From NCBI RefSeq assembly GCF_035975855.1, contig NZ_CP109055.1, forward strand, positions 2,294,001 through 2,358,000: DNA of 64,000 nucleotides. Reading direction: 5' to 3'. Made by a program: the position numbers and the translations under genes. Source of the DNA: Streptomyces sp. NBC_01304. Lineage in GTDB: Bacteria; Actinomycetota; Actinomycetes; Streptomycetales; Streptomycetaceae. Below the pieces are notes generated by a model, which made no database searches, had not been told where the DNA came from, and was given only the letters and a program-made list of their open reading frames with translations. Of the stretch, positions 18,959 to 44,843 are shown one piece after another (within the stretch, counting starts at the first letter, position 1; the number at the start of each line of letters is the position of its first letter).

Positions 18959-18959
18959 T

Positions 18960-26387: not shown

Positions 26388-27257
26388 ATGTACGACCCCG
26401 TTCAGCTGCGTACCTTCCTGGCGGTCGCGCAAACCCTCAGCTTCACCCAGGCCGCCCGGCGGCTCGGCCTGCGCCAGTCCACGGTGAGCCAGCAGGTGCG
26501 CCGCCTGGAGGACGCGACCGGCCGCCGGCTCTTCTCCCGCGACACCCACGGCGTGGAGCTCACCGAGGACGGCGAGGCGATGCTGGGCTTCGCCCGCTCG
26601 ATCCTCGACGCGAACGAAAGGGCCGCCGCCTTCTTCGCGGGTACGCGGCTGCGCGGGCGGCTGCGTTTCGGCGCGTCCGAGGACTTCGTGCTGACCCGGC
26701 TGCCGGAGATCCTGGAGGCCTTCCGGCACGAGAACCCCGAGGTCGACCTGGAGCTGACGGTCGAGCTGTCCGGCACCCTGCACGCGATGCTCGCCGACGG
26801 AAAGCTCGACCTGGTCCTCGCCAAGCGGTCGGGGGCCTCCCGGGGCACGGTCGTGTGGCGGGACGACCTGGTCTGGATCGGGGCGGAGCGGCTACGCCTC
26901 GACCCTGACCAGCCGGTGCCGCTGATCGTCTACCCACCGCCGGGCCTCACCCGGGCCCGCGCCCTGGAGGTCCTGGAGCGGGAGGGCCGCGCCTGGCGCA
27001 TCGCCTGCACGAGCACCAGCCTGAACGGCCTGATCGCGGCGGCCCGAGCGGGCCTCGGCGTAATGGCACACACCCGCGGCCTCATCCCCCCGGGCCTGAC
27101 CCGGGTCCGGGCGGGCCTGCCCGACCTGGGCGGCGTGGACTTCGTCCTGCTGCACGGGGACGACCGGCGACGGGCTTCGGCACGGGGCCCTGCGGAGGCG
27201 TTGGCGGCGGCGGTTCTGGCCGGGGGTGACCGGTTGCATCGGGGGGCCGGCTCATGA
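26388..27257 (+). CDS. LysR family transcriptional regulator
   Basis: Regulator of 289 residues. The N-terminal HTH reads LRTFLAVAQTLSFTQAARRL with the recognition segment LRQSTVSQQVRRLEDATGRRLFSR. The C-terminal effector-binding domain follows (GRLRFGASEDFVLTRLPEIL onward). It is divergent from the SBF-like symporter, the usual arrangement of a LysR protein with its target. The stop codon abuts dispersed repeat copy 3. Confidence 0.93.
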   Translation: MYDPVQLRTFLAVAQTLSFTQAARRLGLRQSTVSQQVRRLEDATGRRLFSRDTHGVELTEDGEAMLGFARSILDANERAAAFFAGTRLRGRLRFGASEDFVLTRLPEILEAFRHENPEVDLELTVELSGTLHAMLADGKLDLVLAKRSGASRGTVVWRDDLVWIGAERLRLDPDQPVPLIVYPPPGLTRARALEVLEREGRAWRIACTSTSLNGLIAAARAGLGVMAHTRGLIPPGLTRVRAGLPDLGGVDFVLLHGDDRRRASARGPAEALAAAVLAGGDRLHRGAGS

Positions 27258-27345
27258 AATCAGCCCGTCCGGCGCTTGAGGACACCGCCCGACGGGCGGA
27301 AGGCTTCGCAGAATTTCGGGAAGGGGCGGGGCGGGGAGAAATTCA
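27256..27345. repeat. Dispersed palindromic repeat, copy 3
   Basis: Core ATCAGCCCGTCCGGCG, then CTTGAGGAC, an inner hairpin CCGCCCG-AC-GGGCGG, and the end GGGAAGGGGCGGGGCGGGGA. It fills the whole gap between convergent LysR and lipoprotein genes and touches both stop codons, so a terminator role is likely. Confidence 0.8.
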
Positions 27346-27960
27346 GTGCCCGCCCACAGGCTTCTCGCAGCCGGTGCCCTCGATGTACCTGCCGTGCGGC
27401 TCGGCCCGCGGCACGCCGCTGCCCGCGACGCCGTCCAGGCACAGTCCGGAGAGGTCGAGGGTGAACGGCACGTAGTCGGTGGCGGCGCCGGTGGGGATCG
27501 TGAGGCGCTCCGCCGGATAGCCCAGGTCGGCCAGGGTCCGGCGCACGCTCTCAGGTGACGGCCGGTCCAGTGCGCGCAGGGCCGCGACGATGCGGCGGCT
27601 GTTGGCCTCGCCCTCGCAGAGCTGGGCGCCGGTCAGCCGGGACGGTCGCTGGAAGCCGTGGTTCTCGGCGTACTTGGTGCCGTCCGAGCCGTCGACGAAC
27701 GGGGTCGGGCTCGCCGTGGGTTCGGGGGCCGGGTCCTTCTCGCAGGCCTCGTGGATCTTCCGCAGGGCGGCGGGGAGTTCGGGCTCCGCAGGCCGGCTCG
27801 GCAGGGCGGAGCTCGCGCTCGCGGAGGGCTGACCCGACGCCGCGCTCGCGGTCGGCTGCCCTGGTGCGCTCTCGGCCGGGCGCTCCTTGCCGCAGCCGGT
27901 CAGGGCGAGCAGTCCGGCGGTGCCAAGGACGGCGGCGTACGTACGAAAGGGTCGCGGCAT
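27343..27960 (-). CDS. Putative lipoprotein
   Basis: Protein of 205 residues with a lipoprotein signal (AAVLGTAGLLALTGC, lipobox LTGC). A Ser/Ala/Pro-rich spacer of about 40 residues precedes a globular domain with four Cys (IHEACEK, QLCEGEA, SGLCLDG, GTGCEKP) that could form two disulfides. I do not recognise the family. It is convergent with the LysR gene and follows the WYL gene on the same strand after 44 nt. Confidence 0.83.
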   Translation of the reverse strand: MPRPFRTYAAVLGTAGLLALTGCGKERPAESAPGQPTASAASGQPSASASSALPSRPAEPELPAALRKIHEACEKDPAPEPTASPTPFVDGSDGTKYAENHGFQRPSRLTGAQLCEGEANSRRIVAALRALDRPSPESVRRTLADLGYPAERLTIPTGAATDYVPFTLDLSGLCLDGVAGSGVPRAEPHGRYIEGTGCEKPVGGH

Positions 27961-28004
27961 GCGCGTCAGTATGGACCGGGCCGGATCGGATGGCCTGAGT
28001 ACCC

Positions 28005-28967
28005 CTACTCAGTACCGCGTCCGTACCGCCCCGCCAGCCCCGCCACCGTCGCCGCGATCCGCTCCCGCAGCTCCGTCGGTTCGAGCACCTCGACCTCCTC
28101 GCCGAGCCGCAGGAACTCGCCGTGCGCGTGGTCGAGCGATTCGATGGGCAGCACCGCCCGGGTCCAGCCGTCGCCCGCTGCCTGGCCCGTCGCGGCCAGC
28201 GCCTTCGCCTGTGCCCCGGTCAGCCGGGCCGCGCCTGCGTCCGTGAGGCGGACGACTGCCTCGGCCGTGTGCAGGCGGGCCAGGAAGTCCTCCTGGTAGC
28301 GCTGCCAGTACGCGGCCAGGTCGAATCCGTCCGGGATCGTGAACTCCTCGTCGGTGACGTCGAGTCGGAGGATCTGGTCGACGCGGTACGTCACCGGGCG
28401 GGGGCCGCTGACCACGTACCAGCGGCCCGCCTTGAGGACGAGCCCGTACGGTTCCAGGCGCCGGTCGACCTCGGTGGGCTCCTTCCAGCGCCGGTAACGC
28501 ACCCGCAGCACCCGCCCGTTCCAGGCCGCGTCGGCCACCGCGGGCAGGAACGGCACCGCGTCGGCCTCCGTGTACCAGCCGGGCGCGTCCAGATGGAAGC
28601 GTGCCGCGATCCGTGAGGCGTGCGCCCGCAGCTCCGGCGGCAGCGCGGCCTCCACCTTGAGCCGGCCCGCCGTGAGCAGCGGCCCGAGCCCCAACTCCGC
28701 GGCCGCGCCCGGCACTCCGGCCAGCGAAAGGGCCTCCGCCTCGCTCGCGGTGAGGCCCGTGAGCCTCGTACGCCAGCCGTCGAGCAGCCGGTAGCCGCCC
28801 GCGTGCCCGGCGTCCGCGTACAGCGGGACCCCGGCCGCGCCGAGCGCCTCGACATCGCGGTAGACGGTACGGACCGACACCTCCAGCTCGTCGGCGAGCT
28901 GCGCGGCGGTCAGGCGGCCGCGGCTCTGCAGGAGCAGCAGGATCGAGACGAGACGGCTGGACTTCAT
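28005..28967 (-). CDS. WYL domain transcriptional regulator (YafY-like)
   Basis: Regulator of 320 residues. A DeoR-like winged helix (LLLLQSRGRLTAAQLADELE, then VSVRTVYRDVEALGAAGVPLY) is followed by the WYL ligand-sensing domain (RRWKEPTEVDRRLEPYGLVL, then KAGRWYVVSG) and a C-terminal extension. The ATG at 28967 is chosen by family alignment. It is divergent from 29030-29521, and a perfect 10-bp palindrome covers the space between them. Confidence 0.93.
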   Translation of the reverse strand: MKSSRLVSILLLLQSRGRLTAAQLADELEVSVRTVYRDVEALGAAGVPLYADAGHAGGYRLLDGWRTRLTGLTASEAEALSLAGVPGAAAELGLGPLLTAGRLKVEAALPPELRAHASRIAARFHLDAPGWYTEADAVPFLPAVADAAWNGRVLRVRYRRWKEPTEVDRRLEPYGLVLKAGRWYVVSGPRPVTYRVDQILRLDVTDEEFTIPDGFDLAAYWQRYQEDFLARLHTAEAVVRLTDAGAARLTGAQAKALAATGQAAGDGWTRAVLPIESLDHAHGEFLRLGEEVEVLEPTELRERIAATVAGLAGRYGRGTE

Positions 28968-28973
28968 GACGAT

Positions 28974-29010
28974 TTCACTGACGACTTCACTGACAGAAGA
29001 TGTCAGTGAA
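28974..29010. promoter_or_regulatory. Palindromic operator between WYL gene and 29030 gene
   Basis: Perfect arms TTCACTGACA (28986-28995) and TGTCAGTGAA (29001-29010) surround 5 nt. An extra direct half-site TTCACTGAC lies at 28974-28982, 12 nt away. Its position overlaps any promoter in this short divergent gap, so it is a strong candidate for the WYL protein's own operator. Confidence 0.6.
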
Positions 29011-29029
29011 GCGGCCCTACCGTCCAGCC

Positions 29030-29521
29030 ATGGCTTTGAACACGGCTTTCGAAGAGAAGCACCTGTGGACCCCACCGCCCATCGAGGCGGGCGGCCGCCG
29101 GATCAAGCGCTACCACGTGAGCGCCGACCCGGCCGGCATCGCGCCGGACGTCGAGGAGGCGGCGTACAAGATCCTGCCGACCCTGCTGCCGGAGCCGGAC
29201 GGCACGCCGCCCGCCACCTTCGTCGTGCTGCACCGCGGCACCGACACCGGCGCCTACCTCAACGCCTACAGCTGGGCATGGGACAACGTCCTGCACTTCG
29301 CGGGCGCGGCCGCGGGCCAGCCGGCGCTGGACTGCCCGGACCTCGACCCGACGCACTTCGTCGTCGCCAAGACGCCCTGGATCGGCTGCGTATGGGAGAT
29401 CCCGCCGATCACGCATGAACGCGATGCCTGGGTGCGGCACATGCTCGCGCCCGAAAAGCCCGATCTGGATGCGTATATCGCCGACTCCCTCCCCGAGGGC
29501 ACGACAGGAGACCGCTCATGA
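29030..29521 (+). CDS. Conserved hypothetical protein
   Basis: Soluble 163-residue protein with a Trp-rich, mixed alpha/beta appearance (AYLNAYSWAWDNVLHFAGAA, FVVAKTPWIGCVWEIPPITH). There is no signal peptide or membrane helix. I start at the ATG at 29030; an ATG at 29000 lies inside the palindrome. No clear ribosome site is present, so the mRNA may be leaderless. It overlaps the next gene by 4 nt. Both genes are probably controlled by the divergent WYL regulator. Family not recognised. Confidence 0.8.
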   Translation: MALNTAFEEKHLWTPPPIEAGGRRIKRYHVSADPAGIAPDVEEAAYKILPTLLPEPDGTPPATFVVLHRGTDTGAYLNAYSWAWDNVLHFAGAAAGQPALDCPDLDPTHFVVAKTPWIGCVWEIPPITHERDAWVRHMLAPEKPDLDAYIADSLPEGTTGDRS

Positions 29522-30000
29522 GCACCACCACGACCACTCCGCACGACTTCGACTTCCTCACCGGCCGCTGGTCGGTCCGGCACCGCAGGGCGCACGACTT
29601 CCTGGCGCCGGAGGCGGGTGGCTGGGACGAGTTCGAGGGGGTCACCGAGGGCGGTACGCACTTCGGGGGTGCCGCGCACTTCGACGAGGTGACCGTTCCG
29701 GGGAAGGGCTACTCGGGGCTGACGCTGCGGCTGTTCAACCAGGCCACCAAGGAGTGGTCGCTGTACTGGGCGGACTCCCGCACGGGGCTGCTGTATCCGC
29801 CGGTGACCGGGCGGTTCGCCGAGGACGGGACCGGTGAGTTCTTCGGGGACGAGCCGTACGAGGGCAAGGTGGTGCGGGTGCGGTTCCGGTGGTCGAACAT
29901 CAGTGAGTCGACGGCCCGTTGGGAGCAGGCGTACTCGGTGGACGGGGAGCAGACCTGGGTGACCAACTGGGTGATGGACTTCGCCCGCTGCGAGGGCTGA
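29518..30000 (+). CDS. DUF1579-like lipocalin-fold protein
   Basis: Protein of 160 residues with the pattern FDFLTGRWSVRHRR at the N-terminus and alternating beta-type segments (KEWSLYWADSRTGLLYPPVTG, ARWEQAYSVDGEQTWVTNWV) typical of small calycin-like DUF1579 proteins, which are presumed to bind a small hydrophobic ligand. It starts at the ATG at 29518, coupled to the preceding gene. Its 3' end overlaps the convergent methyltransferase by 101 nt. Confidence 0.8.
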   Translation: MSTTTTTPHDFDFLTGRWSVRHRRAHDFLAPEAGGWDEFEGVTEGGTHFGGAAHFDEVTVPGKGYSGLTLRLFNQATKEWSLYWADSRTGLLYPPVTGRFAEDGTGEFFGDEPYEGKVVRVRFRWSNISESTARWEQAYSVDGEQTWVTNWVMDFARCEG

Positions 30001-30688
30001 CGGCGGTGTCCGCCTTGCGGGCCACGAAGACCAGCCGCAGGGCCGGGTGCCCTTCGGGGACCGGGTGGGCGCCGCGCAGGTGGAAGCCGCTGCCGGTGAG
30101 GGCGGCGGTGATCTCCTCGGTGCGGTAGGCGCGTTGGACGTGGGTCTCGTACGCGGTCCCCTGCGGCCCTCGACGCTCCACCCGCACCCGGCGCAGGGGC
30201 GCCGCACCGGGACCGGTGCGCACGATCATGTCGAAGACCGTGTGGCCGCCGGGAGGCAGGGCGCGGGCGAAGGCGCGTAGCGCGGTGTGCAGTTCGGGCG
30301 GCCGGAGCAGATAGTTCAGGGTGTCGAACTGGCAGGTCAGCAGGTCGACTTGGTGCGGCAGGCGCAGGGTGCGCAGGTCCTGGAGGAGGAAGCGGGCGCC
30401 GTTCCCCCGGTTCTTGGCGAGGGCTCTGGCCAGCATGTGCGGGGAGCGGTCCACGCCCCAGACGGGGTGGATGCCGCGGGCCCGCAGCTGGGCCACGAAG
30501 GTGCCGGTGCCGCAGCCCACGTCGGCGGCGGAGCGGAAGGCGAGGCCGTAGTGGCGTTCGATCCGTGCGTAGGCGCGGCCGAGGCGGGCGAAGGCGCGGT
30601 CGCCGAGGAGGGCGTCGTAGCGGGCGGCCAGCTGCTCGTACGGGGACAGCTGCCGAACTGCCGTCACCGAAGGGCGGGTTGGCGACAT
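29900..30688 (-). CDS. Class I SAM-dependent methyltransferase
   Basis: Protein of 262 residues with motif I ADVGCGTGTFVAQL, the acidic end of the next strand (GVDRSP) and the post-motif block LPHQVDLLTCQFDTLNYLL. The fold ends near LRLVFVARKADTAV. The last 33 residues are a Ser/Pro-rich tail encoded antisense to 29518-30000, suggesting loss of an earlier stop. It starts one nucleotide into the stop of 30688-31974 and is the last gene of the uncharacterised minus-strand cluster. The substrate is unknown. Confidence 0.85.
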   Translation of the reverse strand: MSPTRPSVTAVRQLSPYEQLAARYDALLGDRAFARLGRAYARIERHYGLAFRSAADVGCGTGTFVAQLRARGIHPVWGVDRSPHMLARALAKNRGNGARFLLQDLRTLRLPHQVDLLTCQFDTLNYLLRPPELHTALRAFARALPPGGHTVFDMIVRTGPGAAPLRRVRVERRGPQGTAYETHVQRAYRTEEITAALTGSGFHLRGAHPVPEGHPALRLVFVARKADTAVSPRSGRSPSPSWSPRSAPRPPSTPAPNGPSTH

Positions 30689-31974
30689 CAGGATTCCCGG
30701 AGAATCATCTCGATGTTGGTGGGGGTCAGGACGTGGACCTTGGTGCCGACGGGCAGCTGCAGACCGGCGGGGTAGGGGCCGCGGGCGGTGATGATCTGGC
30801 CGCCGTTCGCCTCCAGCATTCCGTAGACGAGGCCCTGCAGGCGGCGGAACCAGCCGCCCTGTTTGGCCTCGAAGAGCTTGAGGCCCCTGGTGCGGCTGCG
30901 GGAGCCGATGCAGTCGACGATCACCAGGTGGCCCAGGCGCCGGTTCGGGGTGCCCGGAGGGGCCGAATAGGCGCGTACGTAGACCTTGTTGGCGGAGTAC
31001 GGGAAGTTCCGGGCGACCCGGGCACAGGCGACCTCCTCCCAGTCCGAGCCGGGGCCCTGGTCGCCGGGCTGCCGTGGCCGGAAACGGCCCCTGGCGTCAC
31101 GCAGCTGCTCCTGTACGGGGCCCTCGAAGCGGGGCAACTCGCGCAGTCGCGCCTCCAGTTGGGCCCATTCCGGGCGTTGCATGGCCGCCGCGACGGCGCG
31201 CCGGACGAGGTAGTGGGCGTCGGCGCCCGGCGGGGAGGTCAGGATCTGCAGCCGGCCGACACCCGAGTGGAAGATCAGCCGGCCGCCGATGTTGGCCCCG
31301 GTGAACACCGCGAGGAGCTTCCCGGCCTCGGCGAGCGCGGCCGCGAGGGCGGCGACGGCCGCTCCGGTCAGGCCGATCTTGAGGGCGAAGTCCAGGAGGT
31401 CGCGGGCGCGCCTGAGCAGGTCGGTGACCGAGATGCCGGGCGGCGGCGGATCGAAGATGACCTCTTCGCCGGGGCCGCAACGCGCCCACGGCGGGCAGGG
31501 CATCGGGGGCTGCGCGGGAGGCTGCGAGGGCTGGAACGGCGGCGGCTGCGGGGGCTGGACGGGCGGCCAGGGAGGCGCGAAGGGCCACGGCGCCCTGGGT
31601 GACGGGCCGGGCGGCGAGGAGGCCGGCGCCGGGGGCCGGTTCAGCAAAGCCCGCAGTTCCGCCCTCAGCGGCATCGACAGTTCGCAGTCCAAGAACCTGG
31701 CGAGGGGGTCGGACATGTCGTTGAGGCGTGCGGCCAGCCGGGCGGCCGTGGCGGCATCGAGGCTCCGGAACAGCCGGCGCAGCGTCTCGGCCCGCCGGGC
31801 CTGCAGAGCCGTCTGCTCGGCGGTGACCGGCAGCCGCAGCTGCTCGATCAGCAGCCTCGACGCGGTGTCGTGCGGCGTGCTCGCCCGGTTGAACGCCGCG
31901 CAGCGCCGCGACGGCGGCCGGACCGGCCCCTGCCCAAGTGCGCCGGACCAGCCCGGCGTTCGGATGTACACCAT
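30688..31974 (-). CDS. Uncharacterised multidomain protein of the 30-37 kb cluster
   Basis: Protein of 428 residues. N-terminus (1-125): helical with RLLIEQLRLPVTAEQTALQ. Residues about 125-165 are a Pro-rich linker with repeated PPWPP/QPPQPPP patterns. A hydrophobic helix region follows (DLLDFALKIGLTGAAVAALA). The C-terminal 150 residues have charged and aromatic features (LGHLVIVDCIGSRSRTRGLK, then LFEAKQGGWFRRLQGL) somewhat like nuclease-fold or toxin tips, but I cannot name a family. GAGGAG precedes the ATG at 31974 by 9 nt. The Pro-rich hinge suits a component of a larger assembly. Confidence 0.8.
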   Translation of the reverse strand: MVYIRTPGWSGALGQGPVRPPSRRCAAFNRASTPHDTASRLLIEQLRLPVTAEQTALQARRAETLRRLFRSLDAATAARLAARLNDMSDPLARFLDCELSMPLRAELRALLNRPPAPASSPPGPSPRAPWPFAPPWPPVQPPQPPPFQPSQPPAQPPMPCPPWARCGPGEEVIFDPPPPGISVTDLLRRARDLLDFALKIGLTGAAVAALAAALAEAGKLLAVFTGANIGGRLIFHSGVGRLQILTSPPGADAHYLVRRAVAAAMQRPEWAQLEARLRELPRFEGPVQEQLRDARGRFRPRQPGDQGPGSDWEEVACARVARNFPYSANKVYVRAYSAPPGTPNRRLGHLVIVDCIGSRSRTRGLKLFEAKQGGWFRRLQGLVYGMLEANGGQIITARGPYPAGLQLPVGTKVHVLTPTNIEMILRES

Positions 31975-32007
31975 CGCGTCCCGCTCCTCGGGTCGGTCGT
32001 GCGTCAA

Positions 32008-32053
32008 GGCTTCGCGTCACAGACGTCCCGGGCTTCGCGTCACAGACGTCCCG
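32008..32053. repeat. Exact 23-bp tandem duplication
   Basis: Two perfect copies at 32008-32030 and 32031-32053, each starting GGCTTCGCGTCACAGACG. The duplication covers the end and stop codon (32040-32042) of the downstream-strand gene, so the stop triplet exists twice. Confidence 0.85.
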
Positions 32054-32561
32054 GCGCGCCCCCGAACCGGACGTCGTACCAGTGCCGGCCCACGATCCGC
32101 CCGGCCACCTCGGTCAACTCGTCCGCCCGCGAGGCCCCCGTGTTGCGGACGGTGAACTCGAGGGTCGCGCCCTCGGAGACCCGGATGTCGAGCGGAAAGC
32201 CGGACAGGCCCCAGGGATTGATGATGTGCCCGAAGCTCAGGTACGGGTCGAGCGGCTGTACGTCGCTGCGGATCTGCCAGCGGTACCCGGGCGTCGCCAG
32301 CTTGGTGGGGTCGCGGGCGAAGCGGTCGGTGAACTGGGCGAAGTACTGCAGCAGTCCACAGTGCGTGGCCGGCAGTTCGAACCGGGCGAGCACCACCTCC
32401 TCGCCGGGCCCCGGCGCGGCCAGCACGCTGGAGCTGTCGAAGACCCGGGCGTCCAGCGGGCTGCCGCAGACGTGGCACTGACCGGCTCCGGCGCAGCCGC
32501 ACACGGTGCAGGACGCCTGGTCGTAGCGGGCCGACGAGGAGGCGTACGGCTGGGCGGTCAT
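32040..32561 (-). CDS. Cys-knuckle beta-rich protein of the uncharacterised cluster
   Basis: Protein of 173 residues. Residues 18-33 hold a tight cysteine cluster (C-x2-C-x-C-x5-C-x2-C in SCTVCGCAGAGQCHVCGS) that may bind zinc. The remainder is beta-rich (EEVVLARFELPATHCGLLQY, DIRVSEGATLEFTVRNTG) and looks like a jelly-roll or tail-type domain. The ATG overlaps the stop of 32558-33229 by 4 nt. It shares the layout of a late strand pair, then a terminal aromatic strand, with its neighbours at 32558 and 34050. No family recognised. Confidence 0.8.
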   Translation of the reverse strand: MTAQPYASSSARYDQASCTVCGCAGAGQCHVCGSPLDARVFDSSSVLAAPGPGEEVVLARFELPATHCGLLQYFAQFTDRFARDPTKLATPGYRWQIRSDVQPLDPYLSFGHIINPWGLSGFPLDIRVSEGATLEFTVRNTGASRADELTEVAGRIVGRHWYDVRFGGAPGRL

Positions 32562-33229
32562 GGCAGATAGCCGAGCATCTTGTAGCCGTGCAGCACGAAG
32601 AAGAGCTGCGCGTCCGTGAACAGCGGCCCTTCGGAGACCTCGTCGACGACGATCCGGATCGTGGACCGGGGCAGGAACAGCATCGGCTTGGCCATCGGCC
32701 TGAACGGCCGCGCGCCGTCGGAGCTGCCGAGCCCCGCGATGTTGTGGATCGCCCGGTTCTGCAGCTCACGGCCGCTGCCGCTGTCGACGATGCTGTACGT
32801 GAAGTCGATGCCGCAGAAGCGCGCGAAGAGGCAGCGGGCCGCGTCCGCCGGATCGTTGAAGGCGGCACCGACCAACGCGTCCCAGGGGGGCGGCAGTTGG
32901 ACGGCCTGGCCGTTGATGACGCCGCCGGTGGGTGGTTTGGGGATGAAGCTGTAGCCGATCGAGGTGGCGACGAAGGCTCCGTCGACGCTGATGCTGAGGG
33001 TCTCCTCGACCCGGTTGCCGGCCAGGCCGCGCAGCCTGAGGACCACGACGTGGTCGAAGGGGATCTCCTTGGTGGAGGGCGGCCCGGACCACGGCGCCTG
33101 ACCGTCGCCACGGTCGGGGTAGCGCACCGGGGCCTGTCCGAACTCGCCCTGCTGCGAGCCGTGTTGTGAGCCGTACCGCGACCCGTACTGCGCGCCGTTC
33201 TGCCGGCCGTACTGCTGGTCGTCCTGCAT
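32558..33229 (-). CDS. Beta-rich protein with Gln/Gly/Tyr-rich N-terminus
   Basis: Protein of 223 residues. The first 38 are a Gln/Gly/Tyr-rich low-complexity segment with SQYGS-type repeats (QYGSRYGSQHGSQQG). The rest is a beta-rich domain (FDHVVVLRLRGLAGNRVEET, LPRSTIRIVVDEVSEG, AQLFFVLHGYKMLG). The pair IRIVVDE then FFVLHGYK resembles FRVEMLF then WVVLDGYLE in 34050-34625, suggesting related folds. GGAGG sits 6 nt before the ATG. The role may be structural. Unrecognised family. Confidence 0.83.
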   Translation of the reverse strand: MQDDQQYGRQNGAQYGSRYGSQHGSQQGEFGQAPVRYPDRGDGQAPWSGPPSTKEIPFDHVVVLRLRGLAGNRVEETLSISVDGAFVATSIGYSFIPKPPTGGVINGQAVQLPPPWDALVGAAFNDPADAARCLFARFCGIDFTYSIVDSGSGRELQNRAIHNIAGLGSSDGARPFRPMAKPMLFLPRSTIRIVVDEVSEGPLFTDAQLFFVLHGYKMLGYLP

Positions 33230-33241
33230 CGTGACCTCCGG

Positions 33242-34036
33242 TCACCAGAGCGGCCGCCAGAGTTCGGGGGCCTGTACGGGGCGGCGGAACGCCCGGGTCC
33301 TGGGCCGCCGTTCGCGGACGTAGCCCTCCACGCCGCCCTGTCCCGGGTTGCCTTCGGGGCCGGGCACGTAGTCGCCGGTGCCGCCCGGCTCCTCGCCCTC
33401 GGCGAGCGGCTCGTCGGCCGGGCCCTCGCCGTATCCGTAGCCGTATCCGAAGCCGTTCAGCTCGTCGCCCTCGCCGGGCGGCGCCTCCGGTGCGGGCGGC
33501 ATGGGGGCGACCAGGGGCGTGGGGGCGGCGTACTGCATCGCGGGCGGCAGCATGCGCGGCGGTCGGCGGCCGCGTACGGCCCGCAGCACCTGGGGCAGAT
33601 AGCGGGCGGCCAGCGGCAGCACCGTCTTGGCGAGGGCGGGTATCAACGACCAGAACCCCACCGGGGATCCGAGCCCGTCGTACCCCTCGACCCACTCGTA
33701 CAGCCGCCCGTCCCGGCCCCGGCGCACCTCGCCCGGCACACACCTGGCGGTGTGGGCGGCCTGCGGCTGGAAGGTGTGGCCGAGCTCGTCGGTCTCGCCG
33801 TACCAGCCGAGGGGTTCTTCCTGGCCGTACTGGCCCATGCCCGCCGGCTGGCCGTACCCGGCGACGTCCTCGTACTGGCCGCAGGTCCCGTCACCGGGGC
33901 AGTCGCCGTAGCCGCACATCGCGCAGCCGTACGCACCGTAGGCGCCATATCCGTCGAGCCCTTGCACGGTCATCAATTCCTCGTCGCCGAGGTCGAATCC
34001 GTCGTCTAGTCCGTCGTCTAGTCCGTCGTGGAACAT
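33242..34036 (-). CDS. Gly/Tyr-rich protein with Cys knuckle
   Basis: Protein of 264 residues dominated by low complexity: an Asp-rich repeat at the N-terminus (DGLDDGLDDGFD), Gly/Tyr-rich stretches (YGAYGAYG, FGYGYGYGEG) and a Pro/Ala region. A compact Cys motif CAMCGYGDCPGDGTCGQ (residues 38-54) recalls the knuckle in 32040-32561. One hydrophobic segment near residue 130 (GFWSLIPALAKTVLPLAARYL) could be amphipathic or membrane-associated. The N-terminal Asp repeat comes from a 12-bp tandem repeat near 34004-34028. It is probably an intrinsically disordered, self-associating component. Confidence 0.8.
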   Translation of the reverse strand: MFHDGLDDGLDDGFDLGDEELMTVQGLDGYGAYGAYGCAMCGYGDCPGDGTCGQYEDVAGYGQPAGMGQYGQEEPLGWYGETDELGHTFQPQAAHTARCVPGEVRRGRDGRLYEWVEGYDGLGSPVGFWSLIPALAKTVLPLAARYLPQVLRAVRGRRPPRMLPPAMQYAAPTPLVAPMPPAPEAPPGEGDELNGFGYGYGYGEGPADEPLAEGEEPGGTGDYVPGPEGNPGQGGVEGYVRERRPRTRAFRRPVQAPELWRPLW

Positions 34037-34049
34037 GCCTGAGGTCTCC

Positions 34050-34625
34050 CTACTGGACGTCGCGCTCCAGGTAGCCGTCGAGGACCACCCAGACGTTCCG
34101 GGGGCCCGTCTCGCGCGCCACGGATCCGGGCAGCCCGCGCGGGAAGAGCATTTCGACCCGGAAGTTCTGCTGGGGCTCGATGAGCACCGGCTCGGCGAAG
34201 CGGAAGGTGGCCATCGGGTCGGGCATGCCGTGGCTCAGCGGCGACGCGCTGCTGCCGGAGAACACCCCGGCGCCGGCCGGGAACATGAACGTCGGCGCGG
34301 TGATCGCCTCCTTCTCGCCGACCAGGAGCGTCACCACGGAGCTGAAGATCAGGTCTGGGATGAAGGGGTCCGGGTGGTCGTGGACCGGCGCCGTGTCGCT
34401 GACGACCACGCGCATCGCCCGTGCCTCGAAGCTGTTCAGGCTCGGCAGCACACCGGCCGCCTGCATGTTGGTCTCGAGGCGTGTCTTGTCCTGTACGTCG
34501 ACGAAGAAGCGGATCACGCGAGGGTCGGTCATCCGGTCCTCGAACGTCTCACTGTCGTCGCGCAGGAAGAAGGCGTCGTAAAGAGGGCTGTGCAGCTTCT
34601 CCTTGACGCCGGTCACCCGTGCCAT
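34050..34625 (-). CDS. Beta-rich structural-like protein
   Basis: Protein of 191 residues without a signal peptide. It has regular beta-type segments (DPRVIRFFVDVQDKTRLETN, RAMRVVVSDTAP, DLIFSSVVTLLVGE) and ends QNFRVEMLFPRG, then RNVWVVLDGYLERDV. The pattern is reminiscent of phage virion or jelly-roll proteins, but I cannot assign a family. A good GGAGA ribosome site precedes the ATG at 34625. The upstream leader contains an exact 16-bp duplication. It is 13 nt from the next gene in a tight operon. Confidence 0.83.
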   Translation of the reverse strand: MARVTGVKEKLHSPLYDAFFLRDDSETFEDRMTDPRVIRFFVDVQDKTRLETNMQAAGVLPSLNSFEARAMRVVVSDTAPVHDHPDPFIPDLIFSSVVTLLVGEKEAITAPTFMFPAGAGVFSGSSASPLSHGMPDPMATFRFAEPVLIEPQQNFRVEMLFPRGLPGSVARETGPRNVWVVLDGYLERDVQ

Positions 34626-34638
34626 GGCCTCGCTCTCC

Positions 34639-34670
34639 TTTCACGGGTATCGCGTTTCACGGGTATCGCG
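34639..34670. repeat. Exact 16-bp tandem duplication
   Basis: TTTCACGGGTATCGCG occurs at 34639-34654 and again at 34655-34670, in the 64-nt gap upstream of the 34050-34625 gene and just after the stop of the transglutaminase-like gene. Confidence 0.85.
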
Positions 34671-34689
34671 GGGAATGCGGTCCTGGCGT

Positions 34690-35823
34690 TCAGCGCACGC
34701 GTGCCGTGCGGTGGTCGCGGGGGTACGCGTACGGGACGGGCGGGCGGTACGGGGCCTGCGGCGCGTAGGGCAGGGCGGGCCGATAGCCCTGACCGGGGCG
34801 GTAGCCGTAGCCCGGCCGGTACCCGTAGCCGGGTCGGCCCTGGCGCCAGTACCGGCGGGCGGGCGGGACGTAGAAGGGGGCGGTGGCCGGGTAGTACGCG
34901 GGCGCCGGATAGGCGTTCCAGGGTCCGGGGTAGCCGGGCGTCTGGCCGGGATACGTCCCGGGTGCGAGCAGCGCGGCCGCCAACCGGGCCGCTGTGCGCG
35001 GGCGGTGGCCGGGGCCGAGCCCGGACTGCCAGATCCGGCGCAGCACTTGGCGCAGCCAGGGGTCCTGGCCGAGGCGGCCCTCGGCGCGCAGCTGGTCCCA
35101 GACCGCCCGGACCCGGGGGTCGCGCGCGGGCAGCCCCGGCCGGCGTACCGCCGCGATCAGGTCCGCGGCCGGTCCCGGGGGCGGCTGTCCTAACGGGCCG
35201 TCCAGGGCCCCCGGGTCCATGGCGGCCGGATTCATGGACGGCGCGTTCACGGCCGACGCGTTCATCGGCGACGCGTTCCTCGCTGCCGAGTTCATGGCAC
35301 ATCCCCTTCGTGTTCGCGTACGCAGCGAAATGACCTTCTTCACCGGGCTGTCGGGCGCCCAGCCCATGGGGTGCGGCATCGTCGCGTCCAGGGCGATCCA
35401 GCGGCCGCGGTGGCCGGCCTCGGGATAGACGTGCGTGAACAGGCCGGGCCGGTCCGGGTCGGGCCCGGCGAGGACGATGCGGACCGGGTGCCCGACGGAC
35501 TCCAGCAGCGCGCCGAGCAGGATGGTCATGTCGTCGCAGTCACCGGCCCGCAGCTGGAGCATCCGCCGGGCGGAGTGCAGGAGTTCGACGCGGTACGGGT
35601 CGCGGGTGTAGCGGACGTTGCGGCGCACCCACTCGAACAGGGCCCTGATCTCGGCGAGATAGTCCTTGGCGGGCACACCCTCGACGCCGAGGATGTGCAC
35701 GGCCCGGCGGCGTACCGCCATGTCCTTGGCGCCGCTCAGGATGAGGGCGCGGATGTGCCGCACGGTCCGCGCGGTGCCCGCGGTTCCCGACGGGATGCGG
35801 TACGTGGTGATCCGCACGGTCAC
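34690..35823 (-). CDS. Transglutaminase-like protein with Tyr/Pro/Gly-rich tail
   Basis: Protein of 377 residues. The first 165 form a transglutaminase/cysteine-protease-like domain with the full triad: Cys in LRAGDCDDMTILLGAL, His in FTHVYPEAGH and Asp in WIALDATMPHPMGW. Similar domains occur in phage-like loci and may cross-link or process partner proteins. The C-terminal half is an Asn/Met-rich spacer, a small helical block and a Tyr/Pro/Gly tail with GYGYRPGYGYRPGQGYRP repeats. The GTG start at 35823 overlaps the preceding stop by 4 nt. An internal ATG at 35295 has its own GGGG site, so the tail may have been a separate gene. Confidence 0.85.
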   Translation of the reverse strand: MTVRITTYRIPSGTAGTARTVRHIRALILSGAKDMAVRRRAVHILGVEGVPAKDYLAEIRALFEWVRRNVRYTRDPYRVELLHSARRMLQLRAGDCDDMTILLGALLESVGHPVRIVLAGPDPDRPGLFTHVYPEAGHRGRWIALDATMPHPMGWAPDSPVKKVISLRTRTRRGCAMNSAARNASPMNASAVNAPSMNPAAMDPGALDGPLGQPPPGPAADLIAAVRRPGLPARDPRVRAVWDQLRAEGRLGQDPWLRQVLRRIWQSGLGPGHRPRTAARLAAALLAPGTYPGQTPGYPGPWNAYPAPAYYPATAPFYVPPARRYWRQGRPGYGYRPGYGYRPGQGYRPALPYAPQAPYRPPVPYAYPRDHRTARVR

Positions 35824-36158
35824 CCCCGCCCACCGGCGCGGACGCTGTCGAGGAGGGCGTGTTCGCTGAGCGGCCGGGTGAAGCAGCCGCCCGTCGGCGG
35901 GTGGACGCGCAGGGTGGTGCGGTGCGCGGAGCACTCGACCACGGTGGTGCCGGCCGCGACCGCCACGGAGCGCATGTCCCGCCCGAAGCCGTCGTACGGG
36001 CCGGTCTCCAGGAGCAGCACATCGGGGTGGGTCGCCGCGACGAGCGCCGTCACGGCGTCCACCGGGCATTCCTCGACGAGGAATTCGGGCGGTCGCAGGA
36101 TCGCCCGGATGCCGCGTCCGGCGATGCCACCGAAGCCAGCCACCAGAACTCGGAGCAC
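35820..36158 (-). CDS. Stand-alone receiver-like protein
   Basis: Protein of 112 residues whose pattern (LRVLVAGFGGIAGRGIRAIL, then HPDVLLLETGPYD and GTTVVECSAHRTTLRV) resembles a response-regulator receiver or small Rossmann domain. The acidic pocket is missing and Glu/Thr replace the phosphoacceptor region. A strong GGGGGAGG lies 6 nt before the GTG at 36158. It is the first gene of the transglutaminase operon and follows two LuxR genes on the same strand. It may be a sensing or partner subunit for them. Confidence 0.75.
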   Translation of the reverse strand: MLRVLVAGFGGIAGRGIRAILRPPEFLVEECPVDAVTALVAATHPDVLLLETGPYDGFGRDMRSVAVAAGTTVVECSAHRTTLRVHPPTGGCFTRPLSEHALLDSVRAGGRG

Positions 36159-36284
36159 ATGCCGCCTCCCCCGCTCGCTGCCGTTCGCCGGTTGGGTACG
36201 CCTCGACGCTAGGCCGGTGCGGGAGGCCGTACGAGAGGCGGCCGGGCAGTCAACCGGGCAGCCGCTACCGCCTGTTGGGGCGTC

Positions 36285-36908
36285 CTAGAGGGCGCCCTGG
36301 CGGACCACCGTGGCCACGGCGTGGGCGCGGGTGCGGCAGTTCAGCTTGGTCAGGGTGTCGTGCACGATGTTCTTGACCGTGCGCTCGGAGTACGCGAGCG
36401 CTCCGGCGATCTCGCGGGTGCTGCTGCCGTCCGCGAGCAGCCGGAGCACATCGAGCTCGCGCCGGGCGAGCAGGCCGGTGACCGCGCGCAGCCGCCCGGC
36501 GCCGCCGAGGTCGGCGAGGAGCCCGGCGAGCAGCGCGGGCGGCAGTGCGCCGGTGCCTGCGGCGATCGCGTCCACCGCGGCGACCAGGCCCTCGGGGGTC
36601 GTCTCGGCGCGCACCAGCAGCCCGGCGAAGCCGCACTCCAGGGCCGGGCGCACCCACTCGGGCCGGGCCGCGTCGAGCAGCCCGAGCAGCGGCAGCGGCC
36701 GCCCTTCGAGGAGCGCCGCGAGGCCGGGCAGGCACTCCGGGTCCGCCCCGGTGACCAGGAGCGCGGCCGCGCCCAGGTCGGGCGCGGGCAACAGCCGCGC
36801 GCTCTCCCCGACGATCACGAAGCCGGCCCTGGTGAGGCAGTCGGCCAGGCCCCGGCGGAAGATCACGTTCGGTTCGTCGAGCCACAGCGGGACGTCTGCA
36901 TGCTTCAT
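36285..36908 (-). CDS. LuxR-type regulator with degenerate receiver (A)
   Basis: Protein of 207 residues from the ATG at 36908. The C-terminal HTH is clear (LARRELDVLRLLADGSSTRE, then SERTVKNIVHDTLTKLNCR). The N-terminal domain keeps the receiver outline (DVPLWLDEPNVIFRRGLADC) but lacks the phosphoacceptor Asp; the expected strand reads AALLVTGADPECL. It probably works without phosphorylation. A longer start at 37007 is open but adds an unconserved Cys-containing segment. It neighbours a paralogue at 37057 and the operon at 29900-36158, its likely target. Confidence 0.85.
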   Translation of the reverse strand: MKHADVPLWLDEPNVIFRRGLADCLTRAGFVIVGESARLLPAPDLGAAALLVTGADPECLPGLAALLEGRPLPLLGLLDAARPEWVRPALECGFAGLLVRAETTPEGLVAAVDAIAAGTGALPPALLAGLLADLGGAGRLRAVTGLLARRELDVLRLLADGSSTREIAGALAYSERTVKNIVHDTLTKLNCRTRAHAVATVVRQGAL

Positions 36909-37038
36909 GCCGCAAGCAGAGCAGTGCCCGGCGTCCCCGGTGAAGCGGCCGCCGGGGCGGACCTCGGGGCAGACCGGGACCGGGCCTTGCCCCGAAGGGA
37001 AGGTCAACTGCCCGTAGGCGCGGGCGAGTCGGTACGTT

Positions 37039-37074
37039 TCAGATGAGCCCGTCCCGTCAGATGAGCCCGTCCCG
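37039..37074. repeat. Exact 18-bp tandem duplication at a stop codon
   Basis: TCAGATGAGCCCGTCCCG at 37039-37056 and 37057-37074. The second copy contains the stop of the LuxR gene (37057-37059); the first repeats the same end codons beyond it. Confidence 0.85.
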
Positions 37075-37719
37075 GATCGCGGTGGCCACCGCCTGGGCCC
37101 GGCTGCGCGCCCCGAGACGGTACTGGGCCTGCTGGACCACGCTCTTGACCGTGCGCTCCGAGAACCCGATCCGGTCGGCGATCTCCCGCGTCCCGCACCC
37201 GTCGGCGAGCAGCGCGAGGACCTGCCGCATGCGGTCGGTCAGCGCGTCGGCCGCCCGCGCCTCGGCCCGTACCGGCCGGGCGCCCCGCAGCTGGAGCCCG
37301 CAGGCGGCCGCGTGCACGGCGGCGAGCAGCTGCTCCTCGGTGAGCCGGGAGCGGGAGAGCACCGCGTCGGCCGGGGGCCGGCCCGGCTGCCCGTCGAGGC
37401 AGCAGGGGTCGGCGCAGATCAGCCGGGGCGGCCCTTCGACCGGCCGCCCGGCCTGCCCGTCGGCCTGTCCCTCGCCCTGCCCCTCGGCCGTTTCCGATCC
37501 GGTCGGCCCGGGTGCCGCGCGGGCCGAGGCGAGCACCACGTCCACGCCGTCCGGCACCGGTCCGAAGGGTGCCTCGTGCACCACGAGGAGCGCCTCGTCG
37601 GTCTCCAGGCACGCCACCAGGCCGCGCCGGAAGATGTCGTTCTCGTCCACGACCGCGACCCTGATCACCTTGCGCCGCCCGCCTTCGGACACCTGCCGCG
37701 GGACGCTCGTCGGGTCCAT
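37057..37719 (-). CDS. LuxR-type regulator with degenerate receiver (B)
   Basis: Paralogue of regulator A, about 220 residues. The receiver begins VIRVAVVDENDIFRRGLVAC, so the acidic pair is kept, but the phosphoacceptor strand reads DVVLASARAAP with no Asp. The HTH is intact (MRQVLALLADGCGTREIADR, then FSERTVKSVVQQAQYRLGAR). A Gly/Gln-rich insertion (EGQGEGQADGQAG) breaks the receiver. I use the ATG at 37719 (GAGG 6 nt upstream); a GTG at 37737 or 37668 is possible. No sensor kinase is adjacent. Confidence 0.85.
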   Translation of the reverse strand: MDPTSVPRQVSEGGRRKVIRVAVVDENDIFRRGLVACLETDEALLVVHEAPFGPVPDGVDVVLASARAAPGPTGSETAEGQGEGQADGQAGRPVEGPPRLICADPCCLDGQPGRPPADAVLSRSRLTEEQLLAAVHAAACGLQLRGARPVRAEARAADALTDRMRQVLALLADGCGTREIADRIGFSERTVKSVVQQAQYRLGARSRAQAVATAIRDGLI

Positions 37720-38066
37720 CGGGTACCTCGGGTCCACCTGACCACCCCCCGGGACGGCCGGGCCGTTCCGCCTCCATTATTCGTGGGGGCGCCGTCGGAC
37801 AAGGGCATCACTCCCGGCCAGAACCGGCTCGGGCACCGGCACCCCGGTGACTGCCTCGTACAGATTCCGTGGAGATTACGCCGCCGTAACTTACTGAAGA
37901 GTCAGAATCCCGTCCGGATTCTGCCCCAACCTCGCCCCTTGTGACCGTATTTACCCGGCTGACCTGTACCGATACCGCGCGCCCCGACCTGGAATGACCC
38001 CCTCCCGCCGGGGCGCACAGTGGGGTACCGTCACCGGCGCTGTGCGGAGCGCCACTAGGAGAACCA
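37720..38066. other. Intergenic region with two inverted repeats
   Basis: This divergent gap between LuxR B and the acyl-CoA ligase holds two dyads: TTACG and CGTAA at 37876-37889, and CAGAATCC and GGATTCTG at 37903-37923 around 5 nt. It is AT-richer than its surroundings near 37860-37960, consistent with promoters. No coding signal was seen. Confidence 0.5.
37903..37923. promoter_or_regulatory. Inverted repeat upstream of acyl-CoA ligase
   Basis: Perfect 8-bp arms CAGAATCC and GGATTCTG with a 5-nt centre, 144-164 nt before the ligase start. It could be an operator or the foot of a transcript hairpin. Confidence 0.35.
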
Positions 38067-39890: not shown

Positions 39891-39967
39891 CGGGTCATCA
39901 GCACGCGCCACAGCCAGAACTGACGGTCCATCAATTCCCGCTGCGACAGTTATTGACGGTTCATCAG
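39888..39967. promoter_or_regulatory. Triple operator-like repeat TGACGG(N)2CATCA
   Basis: Three copies occur upstream of the importer: TGACGGGTCATCAG at 39888 (overlapping the ligase stop codon), TGACGGTCCATCAA at 39921 and TGACGGTTCATCAG at 39954. Each is a partial dyad (CTGA and TCAG ends in the first). The spacing is 33 nt, about three helical turns, so bound dimers would lie on one DNA face. Confidence 0.55.
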
Positions 39968-40026
39968 GTCCCGCACAGAATCACCGTCACACTGCAACAT
40001 TCCTGTTTGGCGGAGGGATCCCGACC

Positions 40027-41286
40027 GTGTCGCGACGAACCATCCGAACCATCGCCGCAGCGGGGGCACTGCTGCTCGCCGCCACCGCGTGCAACTCCGC
40101 CTCCACGTCAAGTGGCGATGGGGACAAAGGCAGTTCGGCACGCGGCGTGAGCGCCGACTCCATCAAGGTCGGCGGCATCGTGTCGATGACGACCGCGAGC
40201 GGTTACAGCAAGAAGGACACCGACCTCGGCGCCAAGGCCCGCTACGACCGCGCCAACGCGGAGGGCGGCATCAACGGCCGCAAGATCGACTACCTGGGCG
40301 CGGAGGACGACGGGCAGGACGGCGGCAAGAACATGGCCGCGGCCCGCAAACTCGTCCAGCAGGAGAAGGTCTTCGCCGTCTCCCCGATGAGCTCCACCAC
40401 CTTCTCCGGCGCCGACTTCCTGGAGAAGCAGAAGGTGCCGACCTTCGGCTGGGGCACCCTTCCCTCGTTCTGCGGCCAGAACAAGTTCCTCTACGGCTTC
40501 AACGGCTGCCTGGTCCCGATGCCCGGCGGCACCATCACCCAGAGCTGGCCCGAGGGCCTCGCCCACGTCCTCGGCGGCGCCAAGGGCAAGTCGGTGGCGA
40601 TCATCGCCAATGACAACGAGCCCGGCAAGTTCAGCATCCGTACGTACCAACAGGGCTTCAAGACGGCCGGCTTCAAGGTGACGTACGCCAAGGCCAACGT
40701 CCCCACCACCACCGCGCCCAGCGACTGGTCCGCGTACACCAAGGCCCTGCTGCGCAGCAACGGCGGCAAGGCGCCCGACGCGATCGTCTCGGTGATGCAG
40801 ACCCCGTACAACATCGGCCTGTTCACGGCCCTCAAGCGCGCCGGCTACAAGGGCGTGCTCACCGACCCGACGGACTACGACCCGGCCCTGCTCGCCAAGG
40901 ACGCCACCAAGCAGGCGCTCGACGGGGTGCACGTGCTGCTCGCCTTCGAGCCGTTCGAGTCGACGAGCCCCTCGATGAAGCAGTTCAAGGAAGACATCAA
41001 GAAGGCCGCGGGCAAGGACGTACCGCTCAACATGCACATGATGACCGGCTACATGTCCGCGGACCTCTTCCTCTCGATCGCGGAGAAGGCCGGCAAGGAC
41101 CTGACCGTCGAGTCGTTCCAGAAGGCGGCGGACGGCTTCTCCGACACCGGCACGATGGTCGGCGACCGGGCCCTGCCCAAGGGGCAGCGGGAGGCGTTCG
41201 GGTGCGGGGCGCTCGTACAGCTCAAGGACGGGAAGTACGCGGTGTCGTCGCCGTTCAAGTGCTACGAGCCCATTCCCTTCAAGTAG
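40027..41286 (+). CDS. Branched-chain-type ABC transporter substrate-binding lipoprotein
   Basis: LivK-like receptor of 419 residues. The signal peptide ends in a lipobox with Cys at residue 22 (LLLAATACNS). The mature part has the family start DSIKVGGIVSMTT, then the block GAKARYDRANAEGGINGRKI. Family members bind Leu/Ile/Val, amides, urea or small hydrophobic acids. The GTG start follows a triple operator-like repeat. The downstream fused permease-ATPase and separate LivG-like ATPase complete the system. Adjacency to an acyl-CoA ligase hints at a carboxylic-acid ligand. Confidence 0.93.
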   Translation: MSRRTIRTIAAAGALLLAATACNSASTSSGDGDKGSSARGVSADSIKVGGIVSMTTASGYSKKDTDLGAKARYDRANAEGGINGRKIDYLGAEDDGQDGGKNMAAARKLVQQEKVFAVSPMSSTTFSGADFLEKQKVPTFGWGTLPSFCGQNKFLYGFNGCLVPMPGGTITQSWPEGLAHVLGGAKGKSVAIIANDNEPGKFSIRTYQQGFKTAGFKVTYAKANVPTTTAPSDWSAYTKALLRSNGGKAPDAIVSVMQTPYNIGLFTALKRAGYKGVLTDPTDYDPALLAKDATKQALDGVHVLLAFEPFESTSPSMKQFKEDIKKAAGKDVPLNMHMMTGYMSADLFLSIAEKAGKDLTVESFQKAADGFSDTGTMVGDRALPKGQREAFGCGALVQLKDGKYAVSSPFKCYEPIPFK

Positions 41287-41301
41287 CCGGGGGTCCGCAC
41301 C

Positions 41302-44070: not shown

Positions 44071-44843
44071 CCGACCACCTCCTCGAAACCCAGGACGTAC
44101 GCGTCCACTTCGGCGGCATCCGCGCCCTCAAGGGCGTGACGCTCGGCATCCGGCCCGGCGAGGTCTGCGGGCTGATCGGGCCCAACGGGGCCGGCAAGAC
44201 CACCCTGTTCGACGTCCTCTCGGGCATCCGCCGCCCCGACGCGGGCCGGGTCCTGCTCGACGGTACGGACGTCACCCGGCGCTCCCCCGTCTGGCGGGCC
44301 CGGCACGGCATGCGCCGCACCTTCCAGCGGCAGCAGCTGTTCGGGCAGCTCACGGTCGCCGACAACCTGGTGGTGGCGCAGGAGTGGCGCGGCGGCGGTG
44401 GCGGGGTCGCCGCCGATCTCGTGGCCGCACCGACGCGACGTACCCACGAAAGGGCCAGGAGGGAACGGGCCGCCACGGTCCTGCGCGAATGCGGTCTCGA
44501 CGCGCTGGCCGGCGACTACGCGGGCGCGCTCCCCGTCGGGCAGGCCCGGATGGTGGAGCTGGCCCGCGCGGTGGCCGATCCGCCGCGCGTACTGCTCCTC
44601 GACGAGCCGGCGTCCGGGATGACAGCCGACGAGAGACAGCAACTGTCGGCTGTCATCCGGCACTTGGCCGACGAGGAGGGCTGTGCCGTGCTCCTCATCG
44701 AGCACAACGTCGCCTTCGTCATGGAGCTCTGCGCCCGCGTCGTCGTGCTCGACCTGGGCGAGGTCCTGGCCCAGGGCACGGCCGCCGAGGTACGCGCCGA
44801 CCCGAAGGTCAAGGAGGCGTACCTCGGCACGGCCGACGTGTAG
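44067..44843 (+). CDS. Branched-chain-type ABC transporter ATP-binding protein (LivG-like)
   Basis: ATPase of 258 residues pairing with the fused LivF-like domain. Walker A is GPNGAGKTT and Walker B LLLDEPASGM. The family HGMRRTFQRQQLFGQLTVAD segment is present. The ABC signature is unusual, LPVGQARMVELARAV in place of LSGGQ, as in other LivG proteins. It is the last gene of the importer operon and overlaps the fused gene by 4 nt. An 8-nt direct/inverted element (GACAGCCGACGAG then CAACTGTCGGCTGTC) lies inside the gene near 44622-44656 and is probably incidental. Confidence 0.93.
   Translation: MTDHLLETQDVRVHFGGIRALKGVTLGIRPGEVCGLIGPNGAGKTTLFDVLSGIRRPDAGRVLLDGTDVTRRSPVWRARHGMRRTFQRQQLFGQLTVADNLVVAQEWRGGGGGVAADLVAAPTRRTHERARRERAATVLRECGLDALAGDYAGALPVGQARMVELARAVADPPRVLLLDEPASGMTADERQQLSAVIRHLADEEGCAVLLIEHNVAFVMELCARVVVLDLGEVLAQGTAAEVRADPKVKEAYLGTADV

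Follow-up and report, generated by a model that had tools for sequence, protein, structure and literature searches.

A ten-gene Streptomyces cluster that may be a domesticated structural module of tailless jelly-roll viruses

A chromosomal cluster of ten genes (g1 to g10) in Streptomyces sp. NBC_01304 is, in a reading that we hold with moderate confidence, a domesticated cellular structural module derived from tailless internal-membrane viruses with single jelly rolls, of the kind represented by Salisaeta icosahedral phage 1 (SSIP-1). Its transglutaminase-like protein is far closer to viral transglutaminases than to the host's four others. A virus particle kit taken over by the host is a possibility because capsid-like and transglutaminase genes occur here without packaging or replication genes.

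Gene order and conservation

Within the window (the whole 64,000-nucleotide stretch of DNA that was analysed), all ten co-directional minus-strand genes proposed in the sequence-only reading are present, at 29900-37737. The spacing had been put at mostly 1-20 nt, which is true of about half of the junctions, because the remainder run from 49 to 148 nt. Overlaps are 1 nt for g1/g2, 4 nt for g3/g4 and 4 nt for g7/g8, the last if g7 starts at the GTG at 35823; the g9/g10 gap is 49 or 148 nt, depending on whether g9 starts at the TTG at 37007 or the ATG at 36908; and the remaining gaps are 12, 13, 64, 65 and 126 nt.

The genes lie in an inserted-looking block of ~10.6 kb (27250-37856, no strand assigned) that is missing from six of the seven relatives compared; in these six, the lysR and AMP-ligase genes adjoin. 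Occurrence is patchy (2 of 392 Streptomyces). S. atriruber keeps the whole ten-gene order, with all ten reading frames open and collinear, which excludes a neighbourhood conserved nowhere else. Searches of the ten proteins against Pfam, PHROG and NCBIfam recognised no ATPase, recombinase, replication or integration gene, and the packaging ATPase of tailless viruses was likewise not recognised among them. The open-access literature, searched at keyword level (jelly-roll bacterial compartment; transglutaminase in tailless phages), yielded no description of the cluster. A defence system was considered and rejected: the methyltransferase and HTH matches from PADLOC were generic ones, and the Cas11e match that it gave g2 (E 0.05) was at chance level. 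Tailed-phage and encapsulin identities and PHROG membership were set aside for want of a profile match.

The transglutaminase and its viral relatives

The product of g7 (34690-35823, minus strand), which ends in a Pro/Tyr/Gly tail, passes Pfam PF01841 (Transglut_core) with 45.1 bits against a cut-off of 23. The full triad claimed for it is kept: Cys (GDCDD), His (HVY) and Asp (LD) align with the viral homologues. Eight sequences of tailless-virus-like genomes score 52-115 bits with g7, versus at most 8.8 bits (six frames) for the host's four other transglutaminases, which form the whole cellular side of this comparison. It also matches gp34 of Salisaeta phage SSIP-1 (E 4e-9), a protein annotated as 'structural'. 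By hydropathy, a C-terminal membrane anchor is present in gp34 and in all five of the closest viral transglutaminases and missing from both cluster transglutaminases; the more distant viral ones of contigs L010 and L054 likewise have none. Plasmid records yielded no relative of g7 or g2.

L010, the first virus contig found, carries a transglutaminase and no match to g4 or g6. Five related IMG/VR contigs (L052/L058, L053/L057, L059, L060 and L061), apparently an undescribed group of tailless viruses, were compared with the cluster. They have the gene order transglutaminase, v256, v173, v150, in which v256 is weakly g6-like, v173 is g4-like by position only and v150 is g3-like. For g3 (32040-32561, minus strand; 173 aa with an N-terminal CxxC pair), v150 is the best ORF in all five contigs (E 5e-6 to 0.015), and hhalign of the two gives E 1.7e-6, equalled by none of 120 column shuffles. 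An ORF of one further virus contig is matched by g6, beyond shuffles, and both the g3-like and the g6-like viral ORFs lie downstream of the viral transglutaminase gene. No sequence signal links g4 to the virus contigs, its likeness being one of fold and position only. Unlike the cluster, the five contigs encode single-membrane-span proteins, v477 and v234 and, where seen, a HerA-type ATPase, a serine recombinase and a glucosaminidase. No PHROG match better than E 0.05 was found for g2-g7, and eight structural-module proteins of L060 are likewise without one at E 0.01. Whole-genome searches with viral profiles found nothing. The virus contigs provide a first handle on SSIP-1 gp34; scans with gp34 and gp46 returned SSIP-1 itself alone.

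Predicted jelly-roll proteins

Structure models predict a single, capsid-like jelly roll for g6 (34050-34625, minus strand; 191 aa) and an eight-strand jelly roll for g4 (32558-33229, minus strand), the latter in residues 54-219 with a low-confidence N-terminus. The folds might have had nothing in common with one another or with virion proteins; the models show otherwise, with resemblance to a cellular enzyme besides. The PDB matches listed for both include virus capsid proteins, and about half of the listed matches in each case are the cellular enzyme PHM, which heads the g4 list. The 'shell-like beta domains' suggested earlier fit the predicted jelly rolls of g4 and g6, but not in the form of tailed-phage capsid or tail folds or encapsulin folds, which neither model resembles. 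A PDB sequence search gave nothing below E 0.3 for g2, g4, g6 or g7.

Both families are without a Pfam model (2209 database matches for g6, 868 for g4), and the rows that carry names are Streptomyces with a few Mycobacterium, Nitrospira and Chromatiales. The two families co-occur on contigs: 12 lengths of at least 3 kb are common to the contigs of the listed g4 and g6 homologues (119 and 118 compared), versus 0.16 in a jitter control. Together with the gene order kept in S. atriruber, these common contigs indicate a cluster beyond chance. Searches of 50,697 phage records and 72,556 plasmids turned up neither family, and IMG/VR pattern scans gave 52 matches for g6 and 26 for g4, with no relative among them. 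The count for g4 in one same-class genus, 0 of 248, comes from a search without bearing on true absence. SSIP-1 gp46 and gp47 were rejected as relatives of g6 and g4, being the best of 27 and weak (E 0.066 and 0.062); the hhalign results for gp46 are weak as well (E 0.017 and 0.088). Viral v173 matches gp47 at E 0.0007 over 41 columns.

The g2 and g5 proteins

The 428 residues claimed for g2 (30688-31974, minus strand) are confirmed from the ATG at 31974; the protein has a Pro-rich hinge and, by hydropathy, one hydrophobic stretch (1.88). Its C-terminal D...EAK...Q...Y pattern, picked out by eye, is what we take to be a possible PD-(D/E)xK nuclease motif. The D, E and K columns are invariant in six sequences; Pfam gives no match for the C-terminus, and none of its PDB matches falls below E 2. 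Five database matches were found, all four named ones in Streptomyces, a scarcity that is a weak absence because only the 8000 most word-rich candidates were scored. With five matches among these candidates, g2 was rejected as a general cargo.

The Gly/Tyr-rich g5 (33242-34036, minus strand; 57% identity, S. atriruber) combines a hydrophobic stretch with a Cys cluster. The absence of an export signal, noted earlier, is upheld for the N-termini of g2-g7 by hydropathy alone: the strongest 19-residue stretch begins at residue 78 or later in all save g3, where a weak one (0.89) lies at residue 18. Hydropathy detects no clear membrane span in g3-g7, so that no membrane-anchored virion protein is seen there.

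Proposed origin and alternatives

In the reading we favour, we infer that the genes passed from virus to cell and that their products may assemble into a particle. The jelly-roll shell subunits would be g6, g4 and probably g3, and g7 would be a transglutaminase-like virion enzyme, freed of its membrane anchor, that might work during assembly either by cross-linking or as a protease. Flexible chains for scaffolding or linking could be supplied by g5 and the g7 tail, and g2, with its hinge and nuclease-like end, would be the likeliest cargo or effector. The domesticated phage structural module suggested from the sequence thus gains from the predicted jelly rolls and from the viral kin of g7, g3 and g6, but its tailed-phage and encapsulin folds fall away.

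The cluster is like SSIP-1 and SPV1 in its transglutaminase, related to the structural protein gp34, and in the predicted fold of g4 and g6. It differs from such viruses in having no recognised ATPase, membrane-anchored proteins or replication and integration genes, in being chromosomal and in its unanchored g7. Encapsulins, cellular shells with cargo whose presumed ancestor is a phage capsid, are a candidate for a functional likeness to the cluster. They have the HK97 fold, according to PMC8987985, in contrast to the jelly rolls modelled for g4 and g6, and Pfam matches no encapsulin HK97-fold shell protein in the cluster. DUF2961 and PHM are likewise cellular proteins with capsid-like jelly rolls; however, PMC8812541 describes them as double jelly rolls and DUF2961 as without virus-like neighbours, whereas single jelly rolls are predicted for g4 and g6, which neighbour a viral-type transglutaminase. 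Within the PF01841 superfamily g7 is a member by cut-off and triad, but scores much higher with viral than with the host's other members.

We consider it unlikely that the cluster was cellular first and that tailless viruses recruited its transglutaminase and jelly rolls. Single-jelly-roll capsid proteins are thought to derive from cellular proteins (PMC8812541), the g6 and g4 families are numerous and PHM leads for g4; yet the viral modules are fuller, with membrane proteins and an ATPase, and the structural annotation of gp34 in a distant phage suggests old viral residence. A live unrecognised mobile element, be it a satellite, a gene-transfer agent or a virus with its other genes elsewhere, is slightly harder to credit: insertion-like block, patchy distribution and intact genes all suit it, but no ATPase, recombinase or replication gene was recognised among the ten, and the phage, plasmid and IMG/VR collections gave no match.

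That the cluster is simply an ordinary cellular beta-sandwich complex with a metabolic or cell-envelope role, and its viral-type transglutaminase a coincidence, seems quite improbable to us. Jelly rolls are common, PHM fills about half of both match lists, and neither the g4 sequence nor the viral-profile searches gave a signal; against this, two more genes, g3 and g6, have matches exceeding shuffles among virus-contig ORFs that lie downstream of the transglutaminase. Least credible is a decayed provirus, the remnant of a tailless phage that lost its other genes after integration. Such a remnant could explain why structural genes related to those of viruses stand alone, with no genes for packaging or replication, in a block that looks inserted between lysR and the AMP-ligase gene, but not the open, collinear frames and conserved regulators of S. 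atriruber, the numerous g6 and g4 families not found in IMG/VR, or the lack in g7 of an anchor common to all five of the closest viral transglutaminases.

Beyond the domesticated module, we advance only tentatively a new class of bacterial particle, built from the jelly-roll capsid proteins of tailless membrane viruses rather than HK97 ones, finished by a transglutaminase, loaded with a lineage-specific effector, for which the nuclease-like g2 is one candidate, and common among uncultured bacteria from several phyla. Jelly-roll viruses are the other great phage capsid lineage beside HK97. If true, this would be a jelly-roll counterpart to encapsulins and a second route from virus particle to bacterial organelle or weapon. 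The g4 and g6 families, large, lacking Pfam models and expressible, leave assembly open to direct test.

Regulators and methyltransferase

Upstream in the cluster, g8 (35820-36158, minus strand; 112 aa; 62% identity, S. atriruber), earlier called receiver-like, matches nothing in Pfam, PHROG or NCBIfam at better than E 0.05, and the same is true of g3-g6. The two LuxR regulators that had been claimed are found in g9 (36285-37007, minus strand; PF00196 E 6.3e-13; 75% identity, S. atriruber) and g10 (37057-37737, minus strand; GerE HTH, PF00196 E 4.2e-12; 59% identity, S. atriruber), and g8-g10 may turn the operon on. At the other end, g1 (29900-30688, minus strand; 71% identity, S. atriruber) is the expected methyltransferase, of class I SAM type (PF13649 E 1.2e-17).

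A conserved ten-gene cluster at a variable site

The cluster lies within positions 2,294,001–2,358,000 of a 10.66 Mb Streptomyces contig and consists of ten minus-strand genes (37737–29900) transcribed from g10 to g1. LuxR-type regulators are encoded by g10 and g9, a 112-aa protein by g8, a transglutaminase-like protein by g7, beta-rich proteins by g6 (191 aa), g4 (223 aa) and g3 (173 aa), a Gly/Tyr-rich protein by g5, a 428-aa orphan by g2 and a methyltransferase by g1. Among the ten proteins only g1, g7, g9 and g10 have profile matches. All ten genes recur in identical order on a contig of S. atriruber, with protein identities of 89% (g6), 86% (g3) and 78% (g4) against 56–75% for the other seven: the three beta-rich proteins are thus the best conserved. 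CxxC-type clusters with a zinc-knuckle-like look are found near the N-terminus of both g3 (32040–32561) and g5 (33242–34036); those of g3 are preserved in S. atriruber.

In six of seven compared relatives lysR (26388–27257) adjoins the AMP-ligase gene (38067), the aligned blocks being 54–382 bp apart; in the seventh they are separated by 2.8 kb. Here the site is occupied by the cluster and four further genes at 27343–30000. Two of these, both assigned by eye, are genes for a putative lipoprotein and a WYL-like regulator; the other two are on the plus strand, and the first of this pair (29000–29521) lies elsewhere in relatives, for example, in one of them, ~11 kb downstream from the ligase. In four of the seven relatives the alignment crosses the AMP-ligase gene and picks up again at ~45,750–45,800, which marks 39900–45750 as a second variable insertion. 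Of 392 searched Streptomyces genomes two carry g6, this one included, and among 396 genomes of the phylum it is matched in this genome only.

In a set of 5.8 billion proteins, g6 has 2209 matches and g4 868; the 120 listed for each carry no Pfam domains. Among the listed matches that carry an organism name, those of g6 come from Streptomyces and a Chromatiales MAG, and those of g4 from Streptomyces, Mycobacterium, Mycolicibacterium vaccae and a Nitrospira MAG. Some members of these families sit on contigs several Mb long. The listed g4 and g6 matches have 12 contig sizes of at least 3 kb in common, compared to 0.16 in a jitter control, indicating that the two travel together. Neither family was matched in phage records or plasmids, nor found in IMG/VR with two peptide patterns per family.

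The transglutaminase and its viral relatives

In a search of 50,697 phage records, the sole matches of g7 were the two entries for Salisaeta icosahedral phage 1 (SSIP-1), at gp34 (E 4e-9), which is annotated with the note structural protein. Passages of three papers (PMC6356626, PMC6260650, PMC4958249) describe SSIP-1 as a phage that has an internal membrane, no tail and two types of major capsid protein, and group it, in part with a question mark, among single-beta-barrel viruses. An IMG/VR scan with the transglutaminase-domain alignment returned five loci, two of them in contigs of a single group and the others in the virus contigs L054 and L010 and in SSIP-1 itself. When the scan was repeated with a viral protein encoded nearby, the group grew to five related contigs. 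g7 scores 106–115 bits against this group, 52–66 bits against the other three viral sequences and at most 8.8 bits against the host's four other transglutaminase loci (six-frame pieces). By sequence, then, g7 points to tailless viruses. The C-terminus forms a hydrophobic anchor in gp34 and in each of the five closely related viral transglutaminases; neither cluster protein has one, nor do the more distant enzymes of L010 and L054.

The five contigs are IMG/VR records of 33–39 kb. Three of eight tested records match the HerA-type ATPase family, all three in this group and two above the cut-off. One HerA-type ORF also matches the PHROG 'terminase large subunit' (E 1.6e-11); its contig further encodes a serine recombinase, a glucosaminidase and an ERF-like protein just under the cut-off. 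None of the eight tested structural-module proteins of one contig (L060) has a PHROG match. Apparently, the five represent an undescribed group of tailless, membrane-protein-rich phages with collinear structural genes. L054, 70 kb long, may also belong to the lineage, as a distant member; at positions 9830–20327 it carries the transglutaminase, an ORF resembling g6 and several additional large ORFs. In L010 (IMGVR_UViG_3300027902_000010) the subgroup transglutaminase lies amid many small proteins with membrane-span-like stretches, and no g4 or g6 matches were seen.

Candidate viral counterparts of the beta-rich proteins

All five contigs share the gene order transglutaminase ... v477, v234, v180m, v256, v173, v187, v150. 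The best ORF for g3 is v150 in every one (E 5e-6, 1.2e-5, 6e-5, 7.5e-4 and 0.015), and comparing the two profiles yields E 1.7e-6 across 115 columns, equalled by none of 120 column shuffles. L054 yielded no relative of g3. There, g6 matches ORF 14216–14821, the best of 134 (E 2.5e-5), at 17.2 bits compared to at most 8.4 bits for shuffles (1304 scored of 2000); hhalign gives E 1e-4 and 0/160 shuffles.

The relation of g6 to v256 is only suggestive at the sequence level: v256 is its best ORF in one of five contigs (E 0.23), three of 120 shuffles reached the score, and the transglutaminase family by chance scored slightly higher. A joint alignment of v256 and the L054 ORF, the latter itself found with g6, gives E 1.7e-5 (0/160 shuffles); by itself the L054 ORF gives no signal against v256 (126/160 shuffles). 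In L061, one of the five contigs, the best ORF for the g6 profile is v173 (10884–11321, E 0.008) and not v256; v173 and v256, both viral jelly-roll candidates, may themselves be relatives. Neither v173 nor v187 shows a sequence signal with g4. Both g4 and g6 are predicted to adopt jelly-roll folds. Whole-genome searches with viral v150 and v256 profiles did not recover the cluster, and the viral matches of g3 and g6 sit in different contigs. Taken together, the comparisons indicate that the order transglutaminase, g6, g4, g3 parallels transglutaminase, v256, v173, v150. The correspondence is firm for the transglutaminase and g3, weak for g6 and, for g4, limited to position and predicted fold.

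A putative domesticated structural module

This conserved bacterial cluster thus encodes a transglutaminase, g3 and g6 with relatives in tailless-virus-like structural modules. No packaging genes were recognised in it, nor a HerA-type ATPase, serine recombinase, ERF-like protein or glucosaminidase. We consider it somewhat more likely than not that the cluster is a structural module derived from a tailless virus and domesticated by the cell; the weakness of the g6–v256 match and the separate contigs of the g3 and g6 matches lower this likelihood slightly. It would best be called a case of virus structural genes kept by cells; keyword searches of the open-access literature yielded no account of the cluster, and no earlier case came to light for this virus lineage. 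Passages of earlier work describe encapsulins as having the HK97 fold, plausibly from phage capsids (PMC8987985), and DUF2961, a jelly-roll relative in cells, as lacking virus-like neighbours (PMC8812541).

The module would have been acquired from a tailless-type virus and retained as a particle or scaffold, with g7 processing or cross-linking subunits; the lost anchor of g7 fits a membrane-free particle. The regulators would time expression, and g2 could be the cargo or effector. Its C-terminus has a D...EAK...Q...Y pattern invariant in six sequences, a possible PD-(D/E)xK nuclease motif for which Pfam and PDB gave no support. The named g2 matches (four of five, from a limited candidate set) are all Streptomyces, and the cargo may therefore differ among lineages.
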